Assembly: GCA_934394515.1 (NCBI GenBank)
Contig: CAKRRU010000020.1
Span: forward strand, 1 to 30,200
Length of the DNA stretch: 30,200 nucleotides
DNA from: an uncultured Acetatifactor sp.
GTDB taxonomy: Bacteria; Bacillota; Clostridia; Lachnospirales; Lachnospiraceae
Reading direction: 5' to 3'
This document shows positions 177 to 7,526 of this stretch, piece by piece. The notes beneath the pieces were generated by a model. The model was not told the DNA's origin. It ran no database searches and saw only the letters and a list, made by a program, of their open reading frames with translations. Made by a program: the position numbers and the translations under genes. Numbering within the stretch: the first letter of the stretch is position 1; each line of letters starts with the position of its first letter.

Positions 177-214
177 AAAAAAAGCAACCGCCCTCGCCAG
201 GAATAGGTTGCTTT
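177..214 (-). terminator. Rho-independent terminator of the three-gene accessory cassette
   Basis: On the minus strand, AAAGCAACC (206-214) pairs with GGTTGCTTT (181-189) across a 16-base GC-rich loop. The stem is followed by a run of seven T residues (177-183, partly inside the stem). It lies 15 bases beyond the stop codon of the last cassette gene, so it closes that transcript. Confidence 0.85.
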
Positions 215-229
215 CCCTGTATCCCCTTC

Positions 230-1021
230 TCAAATCTGCTGAAGCTGGTAACCGCTGTCCTTGCAAATGGATCTTGTGTCTAAATCTATCAGCTTATCTA
301 CGGTACCCTTATCTTTACAACAGTATTCACACTTTTTATCGCATATATTTATCACTTGCTGTTGTGCCATTTTTTCTTTTATGTCACTGCAATCTCTCAA
401 CCAACATTCCGCCGATTTCCGGAACGCTCCCACTGATTTCGTTATCGCAAAATGACCGTTCCCTTTTAATGCCCTTGTTACCTCCATCAGCAGTTCGTTT
501 GCAAAGTGTTCTCTGTTTTTTCCTGCGCTGTTATGTAGATCAATAAAGTTCTGAATCTCGCGACTGGTATCAAAATAATCTGTTCCATTTTGCAAATTAT
601 CATGTACATACTGTAATGCAGCAATGACCACATTTTCTGCCACGGGGTTCTTCAAGTACATCGCTAAGACTTCGTCATAGGAAAGGTACAGATCCTCAAA
701 GCACCAATAGGATGTAGCAACAAACTCAGCGCCTTTTTTCATGCACAGCCTGGTTCCCCATTTCACAAAGTCATGTGCAATAAACCCTTTGGTATTGTTT
801 GCCACACAGTCAACCGCTACAAATACTTTATCTCCTGCCTGCAATTTGGGAAATATGCTTAACACCTGCGCCTTTAAGGTTGTATTTCCCGAAGCTGTCT
901 GTCCATCACTTCCGATTGGAAATGATACTAACAGAAAGGAATCCACAGTTCTGAATGTCTGGGCTACACATTGCCAGAAATCACGGGCTGAATTTGAATC
1001 CTCTGTAATGATATACAACAA
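230..1021 (-). CDS. Toprim-like / cysteine-cluster protein of accessory cassette (gene 3)
   Basis: I do not recognise this 263-residue protein with certainty. It opens with a beta strand ending in an acidic residue (LYIITED, Glu7), then a hydrophobic strand GDKVFVAVD (Asp71), then CFED (Glu109, Asp110). This spacing resembles the acidic pattern of Toprim-type nuclease folds such as those in OLD or DUF4435 proteins, but the usual DxD pair is not clear (DCV). The C-terminus has Cys227, Cys231, Cys234, Cys235 and Cys253, a possible metal site. The start is TTG, directly after the TAA of gene 2 (TAATTG), with GGGGGTGGG about five bases upstream; a second TTG follows at once. Adjacent genes imply coupled translation. 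No signal peptide or membrane segment is visible, so it is probably cytosolic. Function is inferred only; nuclease activity is a guess. Confidence 0.75.
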   Translation of the reverse strand: MLYIITEDSNSARDFWQCVAQTFRTVDSFLLVSFPIGSDGQTASGNTTLKAQVLSIFPKLQAGDKVFVAVDCVANNTKGFIAHDFVKWGTRLCMKKGAEFVATSYWCFEDLYLSYDEVLAMYLKNPVAENVVIAALQYVHDNLQNGTDYFDTSREIQNFIDLHNSAGKNREHFANELLMEVTRALKGNGHFAITKSVGAFRKSAECWLRDCSDIKEKMAQQQVINICDKKCEYCCKDKGTVDKLIDLDTRSICKDSGYQLQQI

Positions 1022-1480
1022 TTATGCCCACCCCCGTACATAACACTCATATTCCAACTGCAGTTCCCCATCCTTCTTGCACAACGTCCCGAAATAGTTC
1101 GGTGACAACTCGATTCCCATAGGTTTTCTTAAAAATATCAGGTATCTGTTGTACCCTCTGTCCGCATTGATAATTTCTACCATCTGTTCATCCAGTATAA
1201 GCTCTGCTCTGTCTATTATGATAAGCTTACCCTTTTGTAAGGAAAGCTTGTCCTTATTATCCTTTGATACAATAAAAATATTGTCAGCATTATACGGCTT
1301 AAAGCTAGCATTATTATTATCGTTGATGTAGCTTTTCAACATAGTGCACAGTAAAGATTTTCCCGTTGCACTATCCCCATGCACTATGGTCTTATTTCCC
1401 CGGAATTTTAAGTTATATTTATTTCCGTTTACATCCGTAAATTTCAAAACATTGCTTTGCCAATCATAACACTGTTGCAT
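1022..1480 (-). CDS. Minimal P-loop ATPase of accessory cassette (gene 2)
   Basis: A 152-residue protein with a textbook Walker A motif, GDSATGKS (residues 35-42), preceded by a strand (KTIVH), and a Walker B-like strand KLIIID (Asp90). A further strand, RYLIFLRKP (112-120), could supply a sensor residue. The first 30 residues look like a short beta-rich element. There is no room for a lid or helicase domain, so this is a bare ATPase core that probably needs a partner. The ATG start has GGGGAGG seven bases upstream, and the gap to gene 1 is 16 bases. The stop abuts the TTG of gene 3. The base composition is distinctly more AT-rich than the neighbouring division genes (one 60-base sample, 1261-1320, is 27% GC). 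Family name unknown to me; the ATP-binding call is firm, the role is not. Confidence 0.85.
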   Translation of the reverse strand: MQQCYDWQSNVLKFTDVNGNKYNLKFRGNKTIVHGDSATGKSLLCTMLKSYINDNNNASFKPYNADNIFIVSKDNKDKLSLQKGKLIIIDRAELILDEQMVEIINADRGYNRYLIFLRKPMGIELSPNYFGTLCKKDGELQLEYECYVRGWA

Positions 1481-1496
1481 GTTACCTCCCCATAAA

Positions 1497-1955
1497 CTAC
1501 ACCATGAAAAGTAAATCTGTTATTCTTTCGGAATCGTTGATCAAATACTCTCTGTTACCGCATTCATATATTTCATCCTCATGCTCCAGGACGATTCCTA
1601 TGTCCATATTAGTCTTATCAATATAACAGAAAAGCTGCTCTAACGCATTCTTTCCGCATTCCGTTGCATTAATCGCTCTGACCGTCGGGTATACCTTCTG
1701 GTTCTCTTGCAGAAAAATGCAATTCAATATGGTTTTGCACCCCGTTGACAAGTCCTGAATACCAGTAATGCCGTAAGGAGTTTCTATTTTCCCGATATTC
1801 TGATCCAATAGCTTTGCATGGTCAACTTCTTCCATGACCTTAATAGAATTTTCGGAAAGGCTTTTTGCAGATACATTGTTATTAAAAAAAGAATCATTGT
1901 CTATGATGATTTCGTTGTCTTTAAAATATTTGCCTGAGGTATATAATCTAACCAT
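1497..1955 (-). CDS. DUF4869-like small protein, first gene of accessory cassette
   Basis: A 152-residue acidic protein beginning MVRLYTSGKYF, with the core DLSTGCKTILN (about residues 69-79), then a stretch resembling ECGKNALEQLF. This core resembles what I remember of DUF4869, a clostridial family of about 150 residues with no known function; the match is from memory and not checked. No membrane segment, signal peptide or catalytic triad is evident. The ATG at 1955 has AAGGAGA about ten bases upstream and lies 24 bases downstream of a strong promoter -10. It leads the cassette, so it is likely co-expressed with the ATPase and the Toprim-like protein. It could be a substrate-recognition partner or a small effector, but nothing in the sequence decides this. 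Confidence 0.8.
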   Translation of the reverse strand: MVRLYTSGKYFKDNEIIIDNDSFFNNNVSAKSLSENSIKVMEEVDHAKLLDQNIGKIETPYGITGIQDLSTGCKTILNCIFLQENQKVYPTVRAINATECGKNALEQLFCYIDKTNMDIGIVLEHEDEIYECGNREYLINDSERITDLLFMV

Positions 1956-1979
1956 ACTTCACCGTTCTCCTTTTCATTT

Positions 1980-2008
1980 ATTATACCGCCTAATTCACAA
2001 AATTACAA
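1980..2008 (-). promoter_or_regulatory. Sigma-A-type promoter of the accessory cassette
   Basis: On the minus strand TTGTAA (2003-2008) and a perfect TATAAT (1980-1985) are separated by exactly 17 bases. The -10 lies 24 bases before the start codon of the first cassette gene. The cassette therefore does not depend on the division-cluster transcript that enters from the right. Confidence 0.75.
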
Positions 2009-2053
2009 ACCACCGTTTTGAAATTCCCCGTTTTCCCCACTTTCACCCCAGCC

Positions 2054-3202
2054 TCAGATCCAGACCCTCTGGTTACAACTGTTTTCCATGCACTGCACAA
2101 AATTCTGGCTTCCATGTCCCGCAATCTTATGGCAGCGGATCCTGCGGTCGTCCACAATGATAAATCCCGGGCAGGAAAAGGTACTTTCCGGTGTGACCAC
2201 GCCGGCTTCCAGCCCCGCTGCTGCTGTGATAATTTTAAATGTGGATCCCGGTTCATAGGTATCATTGATGCAGCCGTTACGCCACATGGCATTCAGTTTC
2301 TCCTGCTTCTGCTCCGCTGTAAGAGTGTCCGGATTCACAGTCACAGCATTTCCGTCCTCCGTCACTTCCTTCAGTTCCGGCAGTGTATAAGGATCATTCA
2401 GGTCAAATTCCGGATAATTCACCATAGCCAGGATCTCGCCGTTCTTCGGGTTCATAGCCACTATGTAGACACTGTCTGCCTCCTTGGTGGCACAGGCCTG
2501 CGCCGCCAACTGCGTGGCATACTCCTGAATATTACGGTCAACACTGATCCTGAGATCCTTTCCGGGCACCGGATCCACCCTGCGTTCCCCTGCGGTATCC
2601 ACCTCGATACCCTTGGCATCTGTAATCGTCAGGATCATCCCCGGATCTCCCTGCAGGGTCTCTTCGTATATTACTTCCAGCCCTATGATGCCCTGATTGT
2701 CTCCGCCGGTAAATCCCAGCACCTTACTGGCCAGTTCTCCGTAAGGGTAATACCTCTTATAGTCTTCGTCTACTTTCACTCCTGCCAGATCATACTCTCT
2801 GATCCTGTCTCCGATGGTTTTATCCACATTGCTTTTAACACGCTCTATCGAAGAATATTTTTCCACACGTTTCCGGGCTTCTTCCCCGGAGATTCCCAGT
2901 TCCTTTACCAGCATGGCGATCACCTTTTCGGGCTCTTCTATCTGGTTATGAATTACAGATATCGTACATACTGTCTTGTTATCTGCCAGCACGACTCCGT
3001 TCCGGTCCAGGATCCGCCCCCTCGCAGCCTTAATACTGCGCTCTCTTTCGTGGAGTCTGGTAGCTGCTTCCGCATAATAATCCGCTCTCCATACCATCAG
3101 GTAAATAAGTCTTCCCAATAACCCGCAAAGTACTATCGCACATACAAAAAAAATGGTCATGATCTTCTTGCGATGAAAAAAGCGGTTCTGACGATCTGCC
3201 AT
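2054..3202 (-). pseudogene. Second class B penicillin-binding protein (SpoVD/PBP2-like), truncated after the SxN motif
   Basis: The reading frame encodes 382 residues: a short cytoplasmic tail, one membrane segment (about 14-36), a dimerisation domain with RGRILDRNGVVLA (61-73), and the start of the transpeptidase domain with S320TFK323 and S375CN377. After Asn377 the PBP sequence stops (QRVWI and a TGA), where family members normally continue for 200 or more residues including the KTG box. Without KTG the enzyme cannot be an active DD-transpeptidase. The frame before the break is clean, so the event looks recent. The start is ATG with GAGG ten bases upstream, inside a hairpin. It follows PBP 1 by 75 bases, in the usual place for the second PBP of a Lachnospiraceae division cluster. 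The accessory cassette begins right at the break, so insertion or an insertion-linked deletion is the likely cause. Confidence 0.85.
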
Positions 3203-3209
3203 AAAGAAA

Positions 3210-3253
3210 CCTCACACAAGAGCTTTTTATATCTTACGGCTCTCCGTGTGAGG
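3210..3253 (-). promoter_or_regulatory. Hairpin hiding the ribosome binding site of the second PBP
   Basis: On the minus strand CCTCACAC (3246-3253) pairs with GTGTGAGG (3210-3217), and an inner AGAGC (3239-3243) pairs with GCTCT (3219-3223), with a small bulge and a 15-base loop. The only plausible Shine-Dalgarno sequence (GAGG) lies in the 3' arm and the ATG follows seven bases later. The TTTCTTT after the stem also resembles a weak terminator tail. It may reduce expression of the second PBP relative to the first, by attenuation or by blocking initiation. Confidence 0.6.
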
Positions 3254-3277
3254 TTATGAGAATTATTCTGAACAGTT

Positions 3278-5584
3278 TTATTGATCTGACGACTGATCAT
3301 TTTGGTTCAACAGGTTATCGTTAACAGGGCTGTCACCCATGGTGTCGTCTCCGCCGACATCCGCTCCCGTAACGGGATCGATGAGACCGCCGTCGATCGG
3401 ACTTACCAGATATCCTGTTGCCGGATCTACCGGATAGCTTCTCCAGTTTTCGTTTGCGGCAGGTGTAGTGCCGTCCTGTGCCGTGCCATCGCCGGTGCCG
3501 GTTCCATCACCGCTTCCGGTTCCGTCTCCGCCGTTTCCTGTGCTGTCTCCACCATTTGCGTCAGCTCCGGTTCCGTCTCCGGTGTTTGATCCGTCACCGT
3601 TCTCCGGAGTCTGTGTATACTGACTGGTGATCTCGATCTGCTTTTCTTCCAGTTCCTGAATCTCTTTATCGGACAGTTCCTCCGTCATAAAGATGTTAAG
3701 ATAAGGCAGTACTTCTGTCAGAACATTTCTGACAATACCTGTTGCGAACTTCGCATCATCCTGAGGCGAAGCATTCGCACGGTCCACTACGACATAGATA
3801 GCGATCTGAGGATCATCTGCCGGTGCATATCCCATAAAGGATACGACATATTCACCGTTTTTACGGGGAATAGTCTCTGCGGTACCGGTCTTGCCACCGA
3901 TGGCATATCCGGCGGGTCTTGCAGTTCTACCGGTTCTGCGGTCGCCGCCTTCTTCCATGACGGTAGCACGGCAATACTGTCTGATTTTCGCGGAAGTACT
4001 CTCAGAGATTGTCTGACGGAGAACTCTGGGTTCGATGTTTTCCACAGTAGCACCGTTTGCATTGGTGATCTTATCCACCATATGCGGCTCATAATAATAA
4101 CCGCCGTTAACCAGAGAACAGAATCCCGCGATCATCTGGATCATCGTCACATTAAAGTTCTGACCGAAGCTGTTGGTCGCAAGATCTGCGCTTCCCATCT
4201 GATCTACCGGGAACAGGAGGCTTGCGGTTCTGGCCTCTCCGGCGAGATCGATATTCGTCTTCAGTCCGAAGTTAAAGGTCTGCTGGAATTTAGCAAATTC
4301 TTCTTTTCCCAGAGTGGCTGCAATCTTCATCAACGCAACGTTGCAGGACCAGGCAATGGAATCCTGTACGGTGACATCGCCTTCACCGCCGGAACGGTAG
4401 CTGTGGCACTTGATGGTGTGTCCGCCGACCTCCAGGGAACCGTTACACTGGTAATGCTCGTTGCCGGTGATAGCACCGCTCTCCAGTGCCGCCGCCACGG
4501 TGAAAGGCTTCGCCGTGGATCCGGGTTCATAGGTGGTAGAAATACAATAATTTTTCCAGAGGTAGTTCAGATTATCCAACAGCTGCTCGTCTGTCAGCGC
4601 ATCGATATCTTCCTGTGTAAAATAAGTCTCCGTCTTGGTCAGCACCTGATAGCCATTGGCGTTCGTTACCATTTCAATCTTACGGGAGCCCAGAAGCGCA
4701 TCCGCATTTCTGGTATCATTCAGATCGTATGTCGGATAACTCGCCATTGCCAGAACATTACCGGTATTTACTTCCATGATGATACATCCCACATTTTCCG
4801 CACCGTTGCCGGGATGTACCGCATCCTTATGTTCATCGTTAAACTGTTTCAGATATTTTTCCACAATGCTCTGAATATTGGCATCGATCGTACTGTGGAT
4901 CGTATTACCGTCTACCGCCGGTTTGATGGTTCGTTCCAGATTGGCATCATCATTCAGATAGCCATATTCTCTTCCGGTAGTTCCGTTCAATACGTCATTG
5001 TAATATTCTTCCAGTCCGTACTGTCCCTCATTGTCTGCTCTTGCGAAGCCGATAACATCAGCAGCCAGAGAACCGTTGGGATATACTCTCTTGTACTCTT
5101 CCTGAAACCATACACCTTTTATTTTACTGTTTTCCAAAGCAGCAGCCTGGAATCCGCTGATCTGGTCATAGGTCAGTCTGCGGAGCGGTACATACCAGGA
5201 AGAATCCGGGTGAGTGGTCACATACTGTCTCACCGCAGTCATATCCAGATCCGGGAAATTAGCTGCCAGAGCCTCCATCGTAGGTTCCAGATAATCCTCA
5301 CGATCCAGCATAACATAAGAATCAATAACCAGATTATATACCTTCTCGCTGACCGCCAGTTTCGTTCCTTTTGCATCTACAATATCTCCGCGGCGAAACG
5401 GCAGCGTCACGGAATCATATTTCTGTTGCGACAGCACCTGCTTTTCATAGGTGGCACCGTCAGCCTTCACGATCCAGGACAGACGGACAGACAACAGAAT
5501 AAATGCCAGTATGATGAATGCATACAGGCATAACAGTTTCTTCTGCATTTTTACGGAAAATTTCTTAGGTTTCTGTTCCTTCAC
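3278..5584 (-). CDS. Class B penicillin-binding protein (PBP2B/SpoVD-type transpeptidase)
   Basis: A 768-residue membrane-anchored transpeptidase that cross-links peptidoglycan on the outer face of the membrane, for septal or spore-cortex synthesis. It has a short basic N-terminus, one membrane segment (17-36), a dimerisation domain with RRGDIVDAKGTKLA (64-77), and a transpeptidase domain with all three boxes: S356TAK359, S413CN415 and K565TG567. It lacks PASTA repeats and instead ends in a tail (about 660-710) rich in Gly, Asp, Thr and Asn, followed by YPVDPATGYLVSPIDGG. The start is GTG with GGGAGG eight bases upstream, 18 bases after the ftsL-like gene. Its place after mraZ-rsmH-ftsL marks it as the division-cluster PBP. 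Whether it is the vegetative PBP2B or the sporulation SpoVD cannot be settled here. Confidence 0.93.
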   Translation of the reverse strand: MKEQKPKKFSVKMQKKLLCLYAFIILAFILLSVRLSWIVKADGATYEKQVLSQQKYDSVTLPFRRGDIVDAKGTKLAVSEKVYNLVIDSYVMLDREDYLEPTMEALAANFPDLDMTAVRQYVTTHPDSSWYVPLRRLTYDQISGFQAAALENSKIKGVWFQEEYKRVYPNGSLAADVIGFARADNEGQYGLEEYYNDVLNGTTGREYGYLNDDANLERTIKPAVDGNTIHSTIDANIQSIVEKYLKQFNDEHKDAVHPGNGAENVGCIIMEVNTGNVLAMASYPTYDLNDTRNADALLGSRKIEMVTNANGYQVLTKTETYFTQEDIDALTDEQLLDNLNYLWKNYCISTTYEPGSTAKPFTVAAALESGAITGNEHYQCNGSLEVGGHTIKCHSYRSGGEGDVTVQDSIAWSCNVALMKIAATLGKEEFAKFQQTFNFGLKTNIDLAGEARTASLLFPVDQMGSADLATNSFGQNFNVTMIQMIAGFCSLVNGGYYYEPHMVDKITNANGATVENIEPRVLRQTISESTSAKIRQYCRATVMEEGGDRRTGRTARPAGYAIGGKTGTAETIPRKNGEYVVSFMGYAPADDPQIAIYVVVDRANASPQDDAKFATGIVRNVLTEVLPYLNIFMTEELSDKEIQELEEKQIEITSQYTQTPENGDGSNTGDGTGADANGGDSTGNGGDGTGSGDGTGTGDGTAQDGTTPAANENWRSYPVDPATGYLVSPIDGGLIDPVTGADVGGDDTMGDSPVNDNLLNQNDQSSDQ

Positions 5585-5602
5585 ACTTCAGGCCTCCCGG
5601 GC

Positions 5603-6052
5603 TTAGTTCTGGCTGCTATCAGCCTGACGCATATAATCATTGCTGATGCTTTCATACGGAATTACCTGACCTTCTGCGGCATAGGTCATTCCAAGCTCAC
5701 CAATGGCAATTCTCTTGATCTCTTCCAGATTGATATTGCTAGTGATACGGCTGTATTCCTCATCATTTGCCAGCTTCAGAGAGTTCAGTTCACTCTCCAT
5801 TCTGGATACTTCTGTGATCTTCGTAGTAAGTTCCGACTGCATCTGGATATAGTTTACCAGAAATAACGCGCAGGCGATCAGTGCCCCCATAAGGAAGGTC
5901 ACATAGCCGATGCTCATATGTCTTGCCTTTTCTCTGTTTTTTCTGGTCTCGTGAGATATCTGTCTCCGGGGCTCTTCCATTTGTCTCCGGATCTGCAGGT
6001 CTCTCGCTGTATTATCATATATGTAAGGGGTATTGCTTCTTCTCTGTGCCAT
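5603..6052 (-). CDS. ftsL: FtsL/DivIC-like cell division protein
   Basis: A small bitopic protein: a basic, Arg-rich cytoplasmic tail (1-47), one membrane segment (about 48-68) and a coiled-coil-like extracellular region (69-100) followed by ISNDY near the end. FtsL works with DivIC/FtsB to activate septal wall synthesis by FtsW and its PBP. I recognise it by topology and by its place between rsmH and the PBP; sequence identity in this family is always low. The frame is open from a GTG at 6070, but the ATG at 6052 (MAQRRSN) has GCGGGA at a better distance, giving 149 residues. An intermediate ATG at 6058 is also possible. Confidence 0.82.
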   Translation of the reverse strand: MAQRRSNTPYIYDNTARDLQIRRQMEEPRRQISHETRKNREKARHMSIGYVTFLMGALIACALFLVNYIQMQSELTTKITEVSRMESELNSLKLANDEEYSRITSNINLEEIKRIAIGELGMTYAAEGQVIPYESISNDYMRQADSSQN

Positions 6053-6082
6053 ATTCATTCCCGCTTTCACTTATTTTCTGTT

Positions 6083-7012
6083 CTACTTCTTTTCAAAAAC
6101 CCTGAGTTTCGCACTCTTTGACCTGCTGTTTGCTTCCAGTTCTTCCGCACTCGGGAGAATCGGTTTTCTCGTGATCACCTTTCCCTTGGAGACCTTGCCG
6201 CATACGCACACCGGGAATTCCGGCGGGCAGGTGCAGGGATTTTCATTCCTGCGGAATGCGTTCTTGACGATTCTGTCTTCCAGCGAATGGAACGTAATAA
6301 TGCAGAATCTTCCGCCCGGATTTAACAGGTCTGTCAGCTCGTCCAATGCTTTTTTCAGTACTTCCAGTTCCTGATTGCACTCAATGCGGATCGCCTGGAA
6401 CGTCTGCTTGGAAGGATGTCCGTTCTGTCGCATTTTTGCCGGAACCGCCGCCTTGATGATCTCGTTTAATTCAAAAGTCGTCTCGATCGGCTTGTCCGCC
6501 CTGTTTTTTACGATATGTTTTGCAATATTTTTGGCAAAAGGATCTTCGCCGTAATCTCTGATGATGTGATACAGTTCCATCTCAGAATAATTATTCACGA
6601 TATCCCTCGCCGTCAGTGTCTGTCTGCGATCCATACGCATGTCAAGCGGTGCATCGAAACGATAAGAAAATCCTCTGTCTTCCGTATCCAGCTGATAGGA
6701 TGACACTCCCAGGTCAAGGACGATACCGTCCACACCGGTCACACCGTATTCTCTGAGAGCCTCCACCGCATTTACGTAATTGTTGCGGATCACGGTCACT
6801 TTATCTCCATAGGGCTGTAATCGCTCCGTTGCCGCCGCGATTGCCGCATCATCCTGATCGATCCCATAGAAATGTCCGTTTTGCAGGTGTCTGCACACTT
6901 CAAAAGCATGTCCGCCTCCGCCCAACGTTCCGTCTACATAGATGCCGTCCGGTTTGATATGCAGTTGTTCAATGGTCTCATGTAACATTACAGAATAATG
7001 ATTGAATTCCAA
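6083..7012 (-). CDS. rsmH: 16S rRNA (cytosine-1402-N4)-methyltransferase RsmH (MraW)
   Basis: This cytosolic SAM-dependent enzyme methylates N4 of C1402 in 16S rRNA, tuning the ribosomal P site. The SAM-binding loop [11 protein letters not shown] (25-35), the motif [10 protein letters not shown], and the C-terminal [13 protein letters not shown] are all typical, and 309 residues is the normal length. The start reads TTG with AAGGA ten bases upstream; no ATG gives the expected N-terminus [13 protein letters not shown]. It sits 19 bases after mraZ, the standard order at the head of the division cluster. Confidence 0.97.
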
Positions 7013-7031
7013 GGGCGGTCATCCTTTCTCT

Positions 7032-7463
7032 TTAAATGGTAAGTCCAAGTCCCTCCATGGAACCTGTGATCGCGTCCATATCGATATCGGAGTTCATGTT
7101 CTCCCACTTCTCCTTACTCCAGATCTCGACACGGCTGCCGACACCGACTAACACTACATCTTTTTCCAATCCGGCGAATTCACGTAATGCCGCCGGCAAT
7201 AGTATTCTTCCCTGCTTGTCCACTTCTACCGTAGCCGCACCGGCTAAGAAGAAACGTGCAAACTGTCTTGCTTCCTTATTGATCAGTGGTAACGAAGTCA
7301 GCTTCTGTTCAAAAGCATTCCAGTCATCGTTAGCATACACAAATAAGCAGCCATCCATTCCCTTGGAAATTACAAATTCCTCACCTAAAGTCTCTCGGAA
7401 TTTTGAAGGAATGATCAACCTGCCTTTCGTATCTAACGTATGGTTGTACTCGCTCATAAACAT
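7032..7463 (-). CDS. mraZ: MraZ transcriptional regulator of the division cluster
   Basis: A 143-residue AbrB-fold regulator with the usual two copies of the DxKGR signature: DTKGRLIIPSKFRE near the N-terminus and DKQGRILLPAALRE in the second half. MraZ assembles into rings and binds direct repeats just upstream of its own gene to regulate the division/wall operon. The frame is open from an ATG at 7478, but the ATG at 7463 (MFMSEYNHT) has GGTGAG six bases upstream and matches the family N-terminus, whereas the upstream ATG has no ribosome binding site. Four matching operator repeats lie 64 bases upstream. Confidence 0.97.
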   Translation of the reverse strand: MFMSEYNHTLDTKGRLIIPSKFRETLGEEFVISKGMDGCLFVYANDDWNAFEQKLTSLPLINKEARQFARFFLAGAATVEVDKQGRILLPAALREFAGLEKDVVLVGVGSRVEIWSKEKWENMNSDIDMDAITGSMEGLGLTI

Positions 7464-7526
7464 CGCACTCACCACCATTCATCCAAAAGGGGACTGCCAC
7501 GAAACGGAGGCCGTTTTTCTGAAAAT

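Follow-up and report, generated by a model that had tools for sequence, protein, structure and literature searches.

The closest described systems pair an ATPase with a Toprim nuclease. In the OLD family (Class 1 to Class 3), an ATP-binding cassette (ABC) ATPase and a Toprim domain are joined in one polypeptide. Excerpts of the TsOLD report (PMC7049728) state that the signature motif of one ABC subunit acts in trans on the nucleotide bound by its partner, and they describe the signature as degenerate in Class 1 and lacking in a homologue of Class 2. In PARIS, the ABC ATPase AriA and the Toprim nuclease AriB are encoded by separate genes, and an excerpt of a PARIS study (PMC10568477) mentions fused versions as well. 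In Gabija, the OLD-type protein GajA is accompanied by the helicase GajB. Here we analyzed a cassette of three genes, which we call A, B, and C, at one end of a 30,200-nucleotide stretch of DNA from an uncultured Acetatifactor sp. of the Lachnospiraceae (GCA_934394515.1, contig CAKRRU010000020.1, positions 1 to 30,200; hereafter, the window). Gene A is related, through its relatives, to the Pfam family DUF4869 (PF16163), gene B encodes a small P-loop ATPase, and gene C encodes a putative Toprim-like protein with a C-terminal cysteine cluster. Our data support the view that A, B, and C are one evolutionary unit.

By analogy, this cassette would work most like OLD and PARIS, although it is a member of neither by the features tested. 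With OLD it has in common the combination of an ATPase and a Toprim-like module, and C has the glutamate and [S/C]xE active-site elements. However, while OLD is a single polypeptide, the cassette encodes three chains, and where B and C are joined (6 of 47 units), the signature part stays outside the fusion. The ATPase B is about 150 residues long and has no signature, the signature partner A being separate and strongly conserved, and C differs from OLD in lacking the second aspartate of the DxD motif and in carrying an additional cysteine cluster. As in PARIS, the ATPase and the Toprim-like part are on separate genes, the fused PARIS forms compare with the A-[BC] units described below, and an AriA-AriB chain is among the fold matches of A. 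Nevertheless, no AriA or AriB match was found for A, B, or C at E <= 1, PARIS has two genes instead of three, and signature and P-loop are split over two proteins in the cassette. Only the OLD-like Toprim idea is shared with Gabija: no helicase match was found among the cassette genes, and their ATPase and Toprim-like parts are separate. Given the separate chains, the incomplete DxD, and the missing AriA/AriB and helicase matches, we rejected the cassette as an OLD, PARIS, or Gabija system.

The initial annotation of this DNA had considered the cassette to be unlike named defence systems, and this was borne out, as no named defence model matched. PADLOC and PHROGs, which were searched without cut-offs, gave best E values of 0.0067 and 0.0015, respectively, both for B and, in the case of PADLOC, for its P-loop. 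Fold searches of A and C yielded sub-threshold leads. No Pfam or NCBIfam model reached its cut-off for A, B, or C of the window, and a PDB sequence-profile search returned P-loop matches for B only, with nothing credible for A or C. The term "DUF4869" is mentioned in none of 5.39 million open-licence PMC papers (subscription journals and preprints lie outside this scope), and no such system was found in the titles and abstracts from further searches of open-licence PMC, where a search for ABC-3C gave mostly irrelevant papers.

Results

Recurrence and fusion of the cassette genes

One set of 397 genomes was searched with both an A profile (A4) and a B profile (A6). These genomes are a group around G001, the genome of GAM79 (titled Lachnospiraceae bacterium GAM79, L001), that we refer to as the family. 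The search scored the top candidates per genome and may therefore have overlooked copies, and the weakest B matches probably represent other ATPases. At E <= 1e-5, 82 of the 397 genomes had a match to A and 93 had one to B, with up to 10 A matches and 9 B matches in a single genome (G112), each on a separate contig. In the protein database, homologues at E <= 0.001 numbered 38 for A, 72 for B, and 47 for C, some of them fragments.

Pairing of A and B was counted on the stronger rows (115 of 131 for A and 99 of 133 for B), the weaker ones having been dropped before the count. Co-occurrence in other genomes had been set as a test beforehand, and A was found next to 93 of the 99 strong B matches (within 1.2 kb and on the same strand, with a median gap of 25 bases). 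Conversely, 93 of the 115 strong A matches had a strong B. The remaining 22, a few of which adjoin a weaker B, weigh against the working proposal discussed below.

The arrangement of the genes was compared in 47 distinct A-B units, taken from a locus collection that consists of best matches and chosen places and is not a random sample. The order was A-B-C in 15 units, C-A-B in 11, and A-[BC fused] in 6, while 14 units had no C longer than 180 residues, a number to be read knowing that the C profiles may miss diverged C genes, and one unit (L081) was mispaired. L081, a mispaired long open reading frame (ORF) labelled as fused, was excluded from the fusion count and included in the A-B Mantel test below. 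Because the units were selected for the presence of A and B, loss of either of these two cannot be compared. A shorter C piece was detectable in 5 of the 14 C-less units (L007, at a contig end, L008, L026, L037, and L041). The C-terminal half of the fused proteins is homologous to C (four sequences; hhalign probability 93%, E 3.4e-7; 2.2% for the reversed control), and the remaining two fused proteins carry the same C-terminal half, with 44 to 49% identity to L040. Pairwise distances were strongly correlated, with a Mantel r of 0.91 for A-B (47 units) and of 0.98 for both A-C and B-C (26 units). None of 2000 permutations was as high in any of the three comparisons, in which genome relatedness is still included, and shared descent of neighbouring genes contributes to the correlated divergence.

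Taken together, co-occurrence, the three arrangements, the B-C fusion, and the correlated divergence lead us to conclude that A, B, and C form one unit, in line with the proposal of the initial annotation that they may act as one system. The idea that three unrelated genes are adjacent by chance has nothing in its favor beyond their small size and is refuted by these same four observations, so that we consider its probability negligible. The fusion further suggests that B touches C, and the absence or shortness of C in 14 of the 47 A-B units would fit an effector with a high cost of upkeep.

Broken Toprim-like parts were also seen beside full-length A, in the form of truncated B-C fusions and of C in two pieces (L038 6834-7382, L039 6976-7500, and L037 6734-7373). 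One genome harbors, about 1.1 kb apart, an A-B-C and a C-A-B cassette, the latter with a short C (L041 5637-9572). In GAM79, a second, weak B match (L003, G001:C1:3345792-3346085; E 2.3e-6) contains five in-frame stops and is probably a degraded B copy.

Genes A and B

The initial annotation had described A as DUF4869-like. This holds by way of its relatives: 10 of the 22 aligned A members match PF16163 at E <= 0.01 (best 6.9e-7), and L015, L024, and L040, which all align in A4, score 36.8, 29.5, and 195 bits, respectively (E 4.4e-58 for L040), against a Pfam cut-off of 28.9 bits. The canonical L040 lies directly upstream of a fused B-C protein. In contrast, A of the window stays below the cut-off, with no PF16163 match even at E <= 1, and filing it under PF16163 by cut-off was therefore rejected. 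A PF16163 search of 398 genomes of the phylum had no hits, and as its controls had none either, this result does not speak for absence.

Six residues are invariant in 35 A proteins, down to 17% identity, namely, F20, S66, G68, K70, G89, and N91 (L040 numbering). They comprise the S-x-G-x-K of the ABC signature and a CGxN motif. The signature reads LSGGVKT in canonical members and LSTGCKT in the window, where its serine is S70, and aligned SMC sequences show the same S-x-G-x-K pattern in their signature, LSGGEK. A is without a P-loop of its own (no GxxxxGK[ST]), and the expected Walker B place reads AINATECG.

The AlphaFold2 (AF2) model of A was of high confidence (predicted local distance difference test [pLDDT] 94.6; predicted template modeling score [pTM] 0.88). 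Foldseek gave no significant match for it (best E 0.014). Among the 50 matches listed, 43 were ABC ATPases or transporters, 6 were Csn2, and 1 was DnaK, the ABC matches including Rad50, SMC, MsbA, and a chain of the PARIS AriA-AriB complex (8v46_B, judged by its length to be AriA). Realignment of the same matches with VIA-align scored 6.3 for Csn2, 6.3 for ABCG25, 6.1 for Rad50, and 5.0 for the PARIS chain, with a guide value of 8. A profile comparison of A with SMC C-lobes was weak (E 0.02, probability 2.3%) and was in the expected register, H125 falling on the H-loop histidine, while AAA_21 proteins were weaker still in the same comparison (E 0.087). A mixed set of ABC C-lobes (8 AAA_21 windows and 4 SMC) reached a score of 25.4 (E 0.0024, probability 12%), and the AAA_21 windows alone reached 19.5 (E 0.023). 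The top three of 60 control profiles, at 17.7 to 17.9, were AAA_21 windows and hence themselves ABC, and the best other control was a reversed SMC N-lobe at 15.9. These motifs and the predicted fold indicate that A is probably a degenerate, P-loop-less ABC-type fold that bears an ABC signature.

In B, the residues invariant in 32 aligned proteins (A6) are G35, G40, and K41 of Walker A, D90 of Walker B, N111, and R118, and no ABC signature motif was found in this alignment. A signature without a P-loop in A, a P-loop without a signature in B, and the near-constant adjacency of the two make a split ATPase formed by A and B the simplest reading, which we regard as moderately supported by these sequence features. 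Two points weigh against it. B is not clearly ABC-type, since hhalign gave probabilities of 94 to 95% for the SMC N-lobe, 93 to 95% for the AAA_21 N-lobe, 86 to 92% for AAA_14, and 92 to 93% for AAA+. Moreover, the structure predictions cover A and C only, and neither B nor the complex. As AAA_14 and AAA+ fit about equally well and the signature is absent, filing B as ABC-type was rejected.

The same results bear on a different explanation, according to which A is no ABC relative at all: DUF4869 would be an independent small alpha/beta adaptor, its LSxGxKT would be convergent, and B would be a STAND/AAA-like ATPase that controls C alone. We take this to be a serious contender, somewhat under an even chance. 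It would account for the sub-threshold fold and profile scores of A, for the lack of any PDB sequence relative of A, and for B fitting AAA_14 and AAA+ about as well as the SMC N-lobe. However, it sits poorly with the fold matches of A, as 49 of the 50 listed are ABC-type or Csn2, with the presence of S-x-G-x-K among the invariants, with non-ABC control profiles scoring well below the ABC set, and with the alignment of H125 to the H-loop histidine of SMC.

Gene C

The Toprim-like residues of C are E7, D8, D71, C107-F-E109, and E171, and its C-terminal cluster is made up of C206, C211, C227, C231, and C235. The glutamate E7 and the first aspartate D71 are invariant, and the [C/S]-F-E element is present. 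In the AF2 model (pLDDT 91.6), OLD Toprim structures were among the best fold matches, below significance, while a viral fold library gave nothing below E 0.036. From its motifs and predicted fold, C would be Toprim-like and nearest to the OLD nucleases, an assignment that stays below significance. Two residues argue against this placement: the second aspartate of the Toprim DxD is missing (D71-C-V in the window), and the residue at E7+4 is a serine and not the acidic residue of OLD. C as a canonical Toprim was rejected because of the former. A relation to the ThiI ferredoxin-like domain or RloB was rejected as too weak, with E values of 0.0025 in one relative and 0.09 in another. The initial annotation had pointed to the pairing of an ATPase with a Toprim-like protein as a theme of anti-phage systems. 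This theme provides the nearest working analogues, C being Toprim/OLD-like by fold and partly by motif, but the likeness does not reach significance.

The carrier element in GAM79

The cassette lies beside a truncated penicillin-binding-protein gene, which presumably sits where spoVD would be expected. Among the 51 genomes grouped around G001, here called the genus, this gene is a single frame of 580 to 642 residues in 44, is cut near a contig end in 3, and has no strong match in 3, while in G001 it encodes 385 residues. The rest of the gene was found 10.4 kb away on the same strand of the complete GAM79 chromosome (L077, G001:C1:1566000-1582000). The sequence TTGTAACC is present at both breaks, 10,454 bases apart, and removing the element restores a single 599-residue frame that is 76 to 78% identical to three relatives over 580 to 590 residues. 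Taken alone, TTGTAACC is weak, since two other 8-mers are common to the junction regions and one more copy of it lies inside the element. We consider it to be the core because it is located exactly at the frame junction. At the far end of the element, a 624-residue protein matches Resolvase with its N-terminal part. The interior carries, besides unknown genes, a 109-residue ORF matching Eco57I methylases, probably an interrupted methylase, directly followed by a Mutator-family transposase (the two at L001 10264-12647). In the sister genome GAM79, a serine-recombinase element of 10,454 bp splits the penicillin-binding-protein gene and carries the cassette as its first cargo. The window breaks off at base 1, and the far end is visible in GAM79 only.

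Window and GAM79 are 97 to 100% identical in positions 1 to 2000, as opposed to 68 to 90% in the core genes beyond (96% in one 200-base bin), with a sharp step near 2000. Judged from this step, the cassette region has spread recently and horizontally between these two related lineages.

The GAM79 element looks like a gene-intervening element of the skin/gin type, as it is likewise a non-phage-like element with a site-specific recombinase that splits a gene. An excerpt of the gin report (PMC5595907) describes gin as a non-phage element with a 9-bp core, compared to the 8 bp found here, that interrupts gerE of Bacillus cereus. In GAM79, by contrast, the target is a penicillin-binding-protein gene.

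The location of the cassette inside a cell-wall gene and beside the division cluster would be compatible with a housekeeping or sporulation function, for instance one tied to the split penicillin-binding-protein gene. However, this position follows from the insertion of the element, and the module is spread over many contigs, with each of the 9 B matches of G112 on a contig of its own, for example, and occurs in roughly one genome in five. Such scattered positions largely refute this function, which we consider very improbable.

Neighboring defence genes and mobile copies

Within 6 kb of 20 cassettes we collected 177 proteins, dropped 10 that were longer than 700 residues, and sampled 140 of the remaining 167 at random. 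As controls, 231 proteins encoded elsewhere on these contigs were treated in the same way (7 dropped, 140 of 224 sampled). After removal of four L145 sequences, which are not from a control region, and with region L165 left out, the control set amounted to 136 proteins from 19 regions. At E <= 1e-10, PADLOC reported 56 families among the 140 neighbors and 15 among the 136 controls. The 25 of the 56 neighbor families that were listed include AriA (2), RmrA (2), AbiLi (1), and type IV restriction (1). This excess, which bears on the possible vicinity of known defence genes raised in the initial annotation, is only suggestive, and distinct proteins are not resolved in it: PADLOC models overlap on one protein, so that family totals are not gene counts, and mad3 was even commoner in the controls (3 versus 2), both of which weigh against an association with defence. 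By Pfam, the neighbors were mostly ordinary among the top 25 of 165 families, with GNAT acetyltransferases at 5 of 140, AAA_21 at 3, and phage integrase at 2.

No confirmed copy was found in viral contigs (searched with B and C) or in plasmids (searched with B). The B search of phages gave a single match of 27% identity, in an 8.6-kb record filed as "Bacteriophage sp." (L085, MT836825.1). This record carries a two-gene A-[BC] cassette and reads as a piece of bacterial chromosome, which we assume from the presumed identities of its genes. The searches of plasmids and phages with B thus contain no genuine phage or plasmid copy.

A patchy, multi-copy, and partly broken module resembles conflict systems, and other selfish or stress modules look alike. 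By analogy with the systems discussed above, a defence role of the cassette is plausible. An alternative is a toxin-antitoxin-like addiction module, in which C is a toxin restrained by A and B and in which the cassette persists by stabilising mobile elements and not through defence. The cassette is indeed cargo of a serine-recombinase element in GAM79, it is multi-copy and patchy, 14 of the 47 A-B units have no C or a short one, and the defence-gene neighborhood is only suggestive. On the other hand, three large conserved proteins, including an ATPase, exceed a minimal toxin-antitoxin pair. Furthermore, most other copies have no evident carrier, the only mobile Pfam families in the top 25 of the 165 neighbor families being Phage_integrase (2 of 140) and Transposase_mut (1 of 140, from the GAM79 element itself). 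We therefore regard addiction as unlikely, and it could in any case coexist with a defence role.

Features of the window

The positions of all features are compiled in Table 1. As the initial annotation stated, the three minus-strand genes are tightly packed, with 16 bases (1481-1496) between A and B and a contiguous B stop and C start (TAATTG). The region is also more AT-rich than the division genes, its guanine-plus-cytosine content being 37 to 42% in positions 1 to 2000 versus 45 to 53% in positions 2001 to 7500. The terminator assigned to the cassette was confirmed by folding of the minus strand from 170 to 230 (-23.1 kcal/mol, z -3.7, equalled by 0 of 200 shuffles), though a simple terminator scan with a loop limit of 8 did not pick it up. 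The promoter assigned to the cassette fared less well. The TTGTAA-17-TATAAT sequence is present, but its score, although the joint best, is equalled by two other sites, and the 8 promoter-like sites observed in the region are no excess over the 6.8 +/- 3.0 found in shuffles. We thus rejected the site as statistically special and read it as a candidate promoter because of its placement, 24 bases upstream of the A start, and not because of its score. The description of the cassette as self-contained does not fully hold, since GAM79 carries it as the first cargo of a larger insertion.

Table 1. Cassette genes, signals, and adjoining features in the window
Feature	Position	Strand	Description	Basis
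Gene A	1497..1955	minus	152 aa; DUF4869-related; signature-like LSTGCKT; predicted P-loop-less ABC-type fold	ORF
Gene B	1022..1480	minus	152 aa; small P-loop ATPase; Walker A GDSATGKS, Walker B LIIIDRAE	ORF
Gene C	230..1021	minus	263 aa; TTG start; putative Toprim-like domain and C-terminal five-cysteine cluster	ORF
Candidate sigma-70 promoter	1980..2008	minus	TTGTAA-17-TATAAT	10/12 matches
Ribosome-binding site of A	1967..1972	minus	AAGGAG	Sequence
Ribosome-binding site of B	1485..1491	minus	GGGGAGG	Sequence
Rho-independent terminator behind C	177..217	minus	Hairpin and U-run	RNA folding
Split penicillin-binding-protein gene	2054..3202	minus	N-terminal 382 aa; PBP_dimer and first third of Transpeptidase; insertion target	Pfam
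Left copy of 8-bp core TTGTAACC	2071..2078	minus	Bounds the GAM79 element; right copy beyond the window, seen in GAM79 only	

Discussion

Our working proposal, which we would place just short of an even chance, is that A, B, and C constitute an accessory three-component module in which an ATP-driven switch controls a Toprim-like nuclease. B would bind ATP through its Walker A and Walker B motifs. A would dock on B and offer its S-x-G-x-K signature to the nucleotide held by B, as ABC signatures do in trans, and the nucleotide state would decide between an open and a closed A-B complex. The A-B complex would hold C, with its putative metal-dependent Toprim-like domain and its cysteine cluster, in an inactive state. 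A signal, for example phage infection or DNA damage, would then shift the ATP state and free C, which would cleave nucleic acid and probably bring the cell or the invader to a halt, much as OLD and PARIS do. Whereas the unit itself, its recurrence, the B-C fusion, and, in GAM79, the carriage on a recombinase element are shown by comparison of loci and sequences, the ABC nature of A, its complementation of B in trans, the nuclease activity of C, and the role in defence are what we infer from motifs, predicted folds, and analogy, and the release of the nuclease through the nucleotide state of A-B is modelled on OLD and PARIS.

A bolder version of this proposal, possible yet on the doubtful side, would make DUF4869 a new kind of ABC protein of about 145 to 165 residues that has lost the P-loop and Walker B and serves as a signature donor. 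It would form with B an obligate split ABC ATPase gating an OLD-like Toprim nuclease, C, and the whole would be an undescribed immune or conflict system of the family, present in about one in five sampled genomes.

If A does supply only the signature to B, an ABC active site could be split into halves carried by two small proteins, and the cassette would offer a compact model for the gating of OLD/PARIS-type Toprim nucleases by the state of ATP. For the uncharacterised Pfam family DUF4869, which about one in five sampled genomes of this gut-bacterial family encode, the analysis proposes a function and names partners. Overall, the cassette is an addition to the defence candidates of commensal gut bacteria that can be put to the test, and GAM79 shows one route by which such a module spreads.

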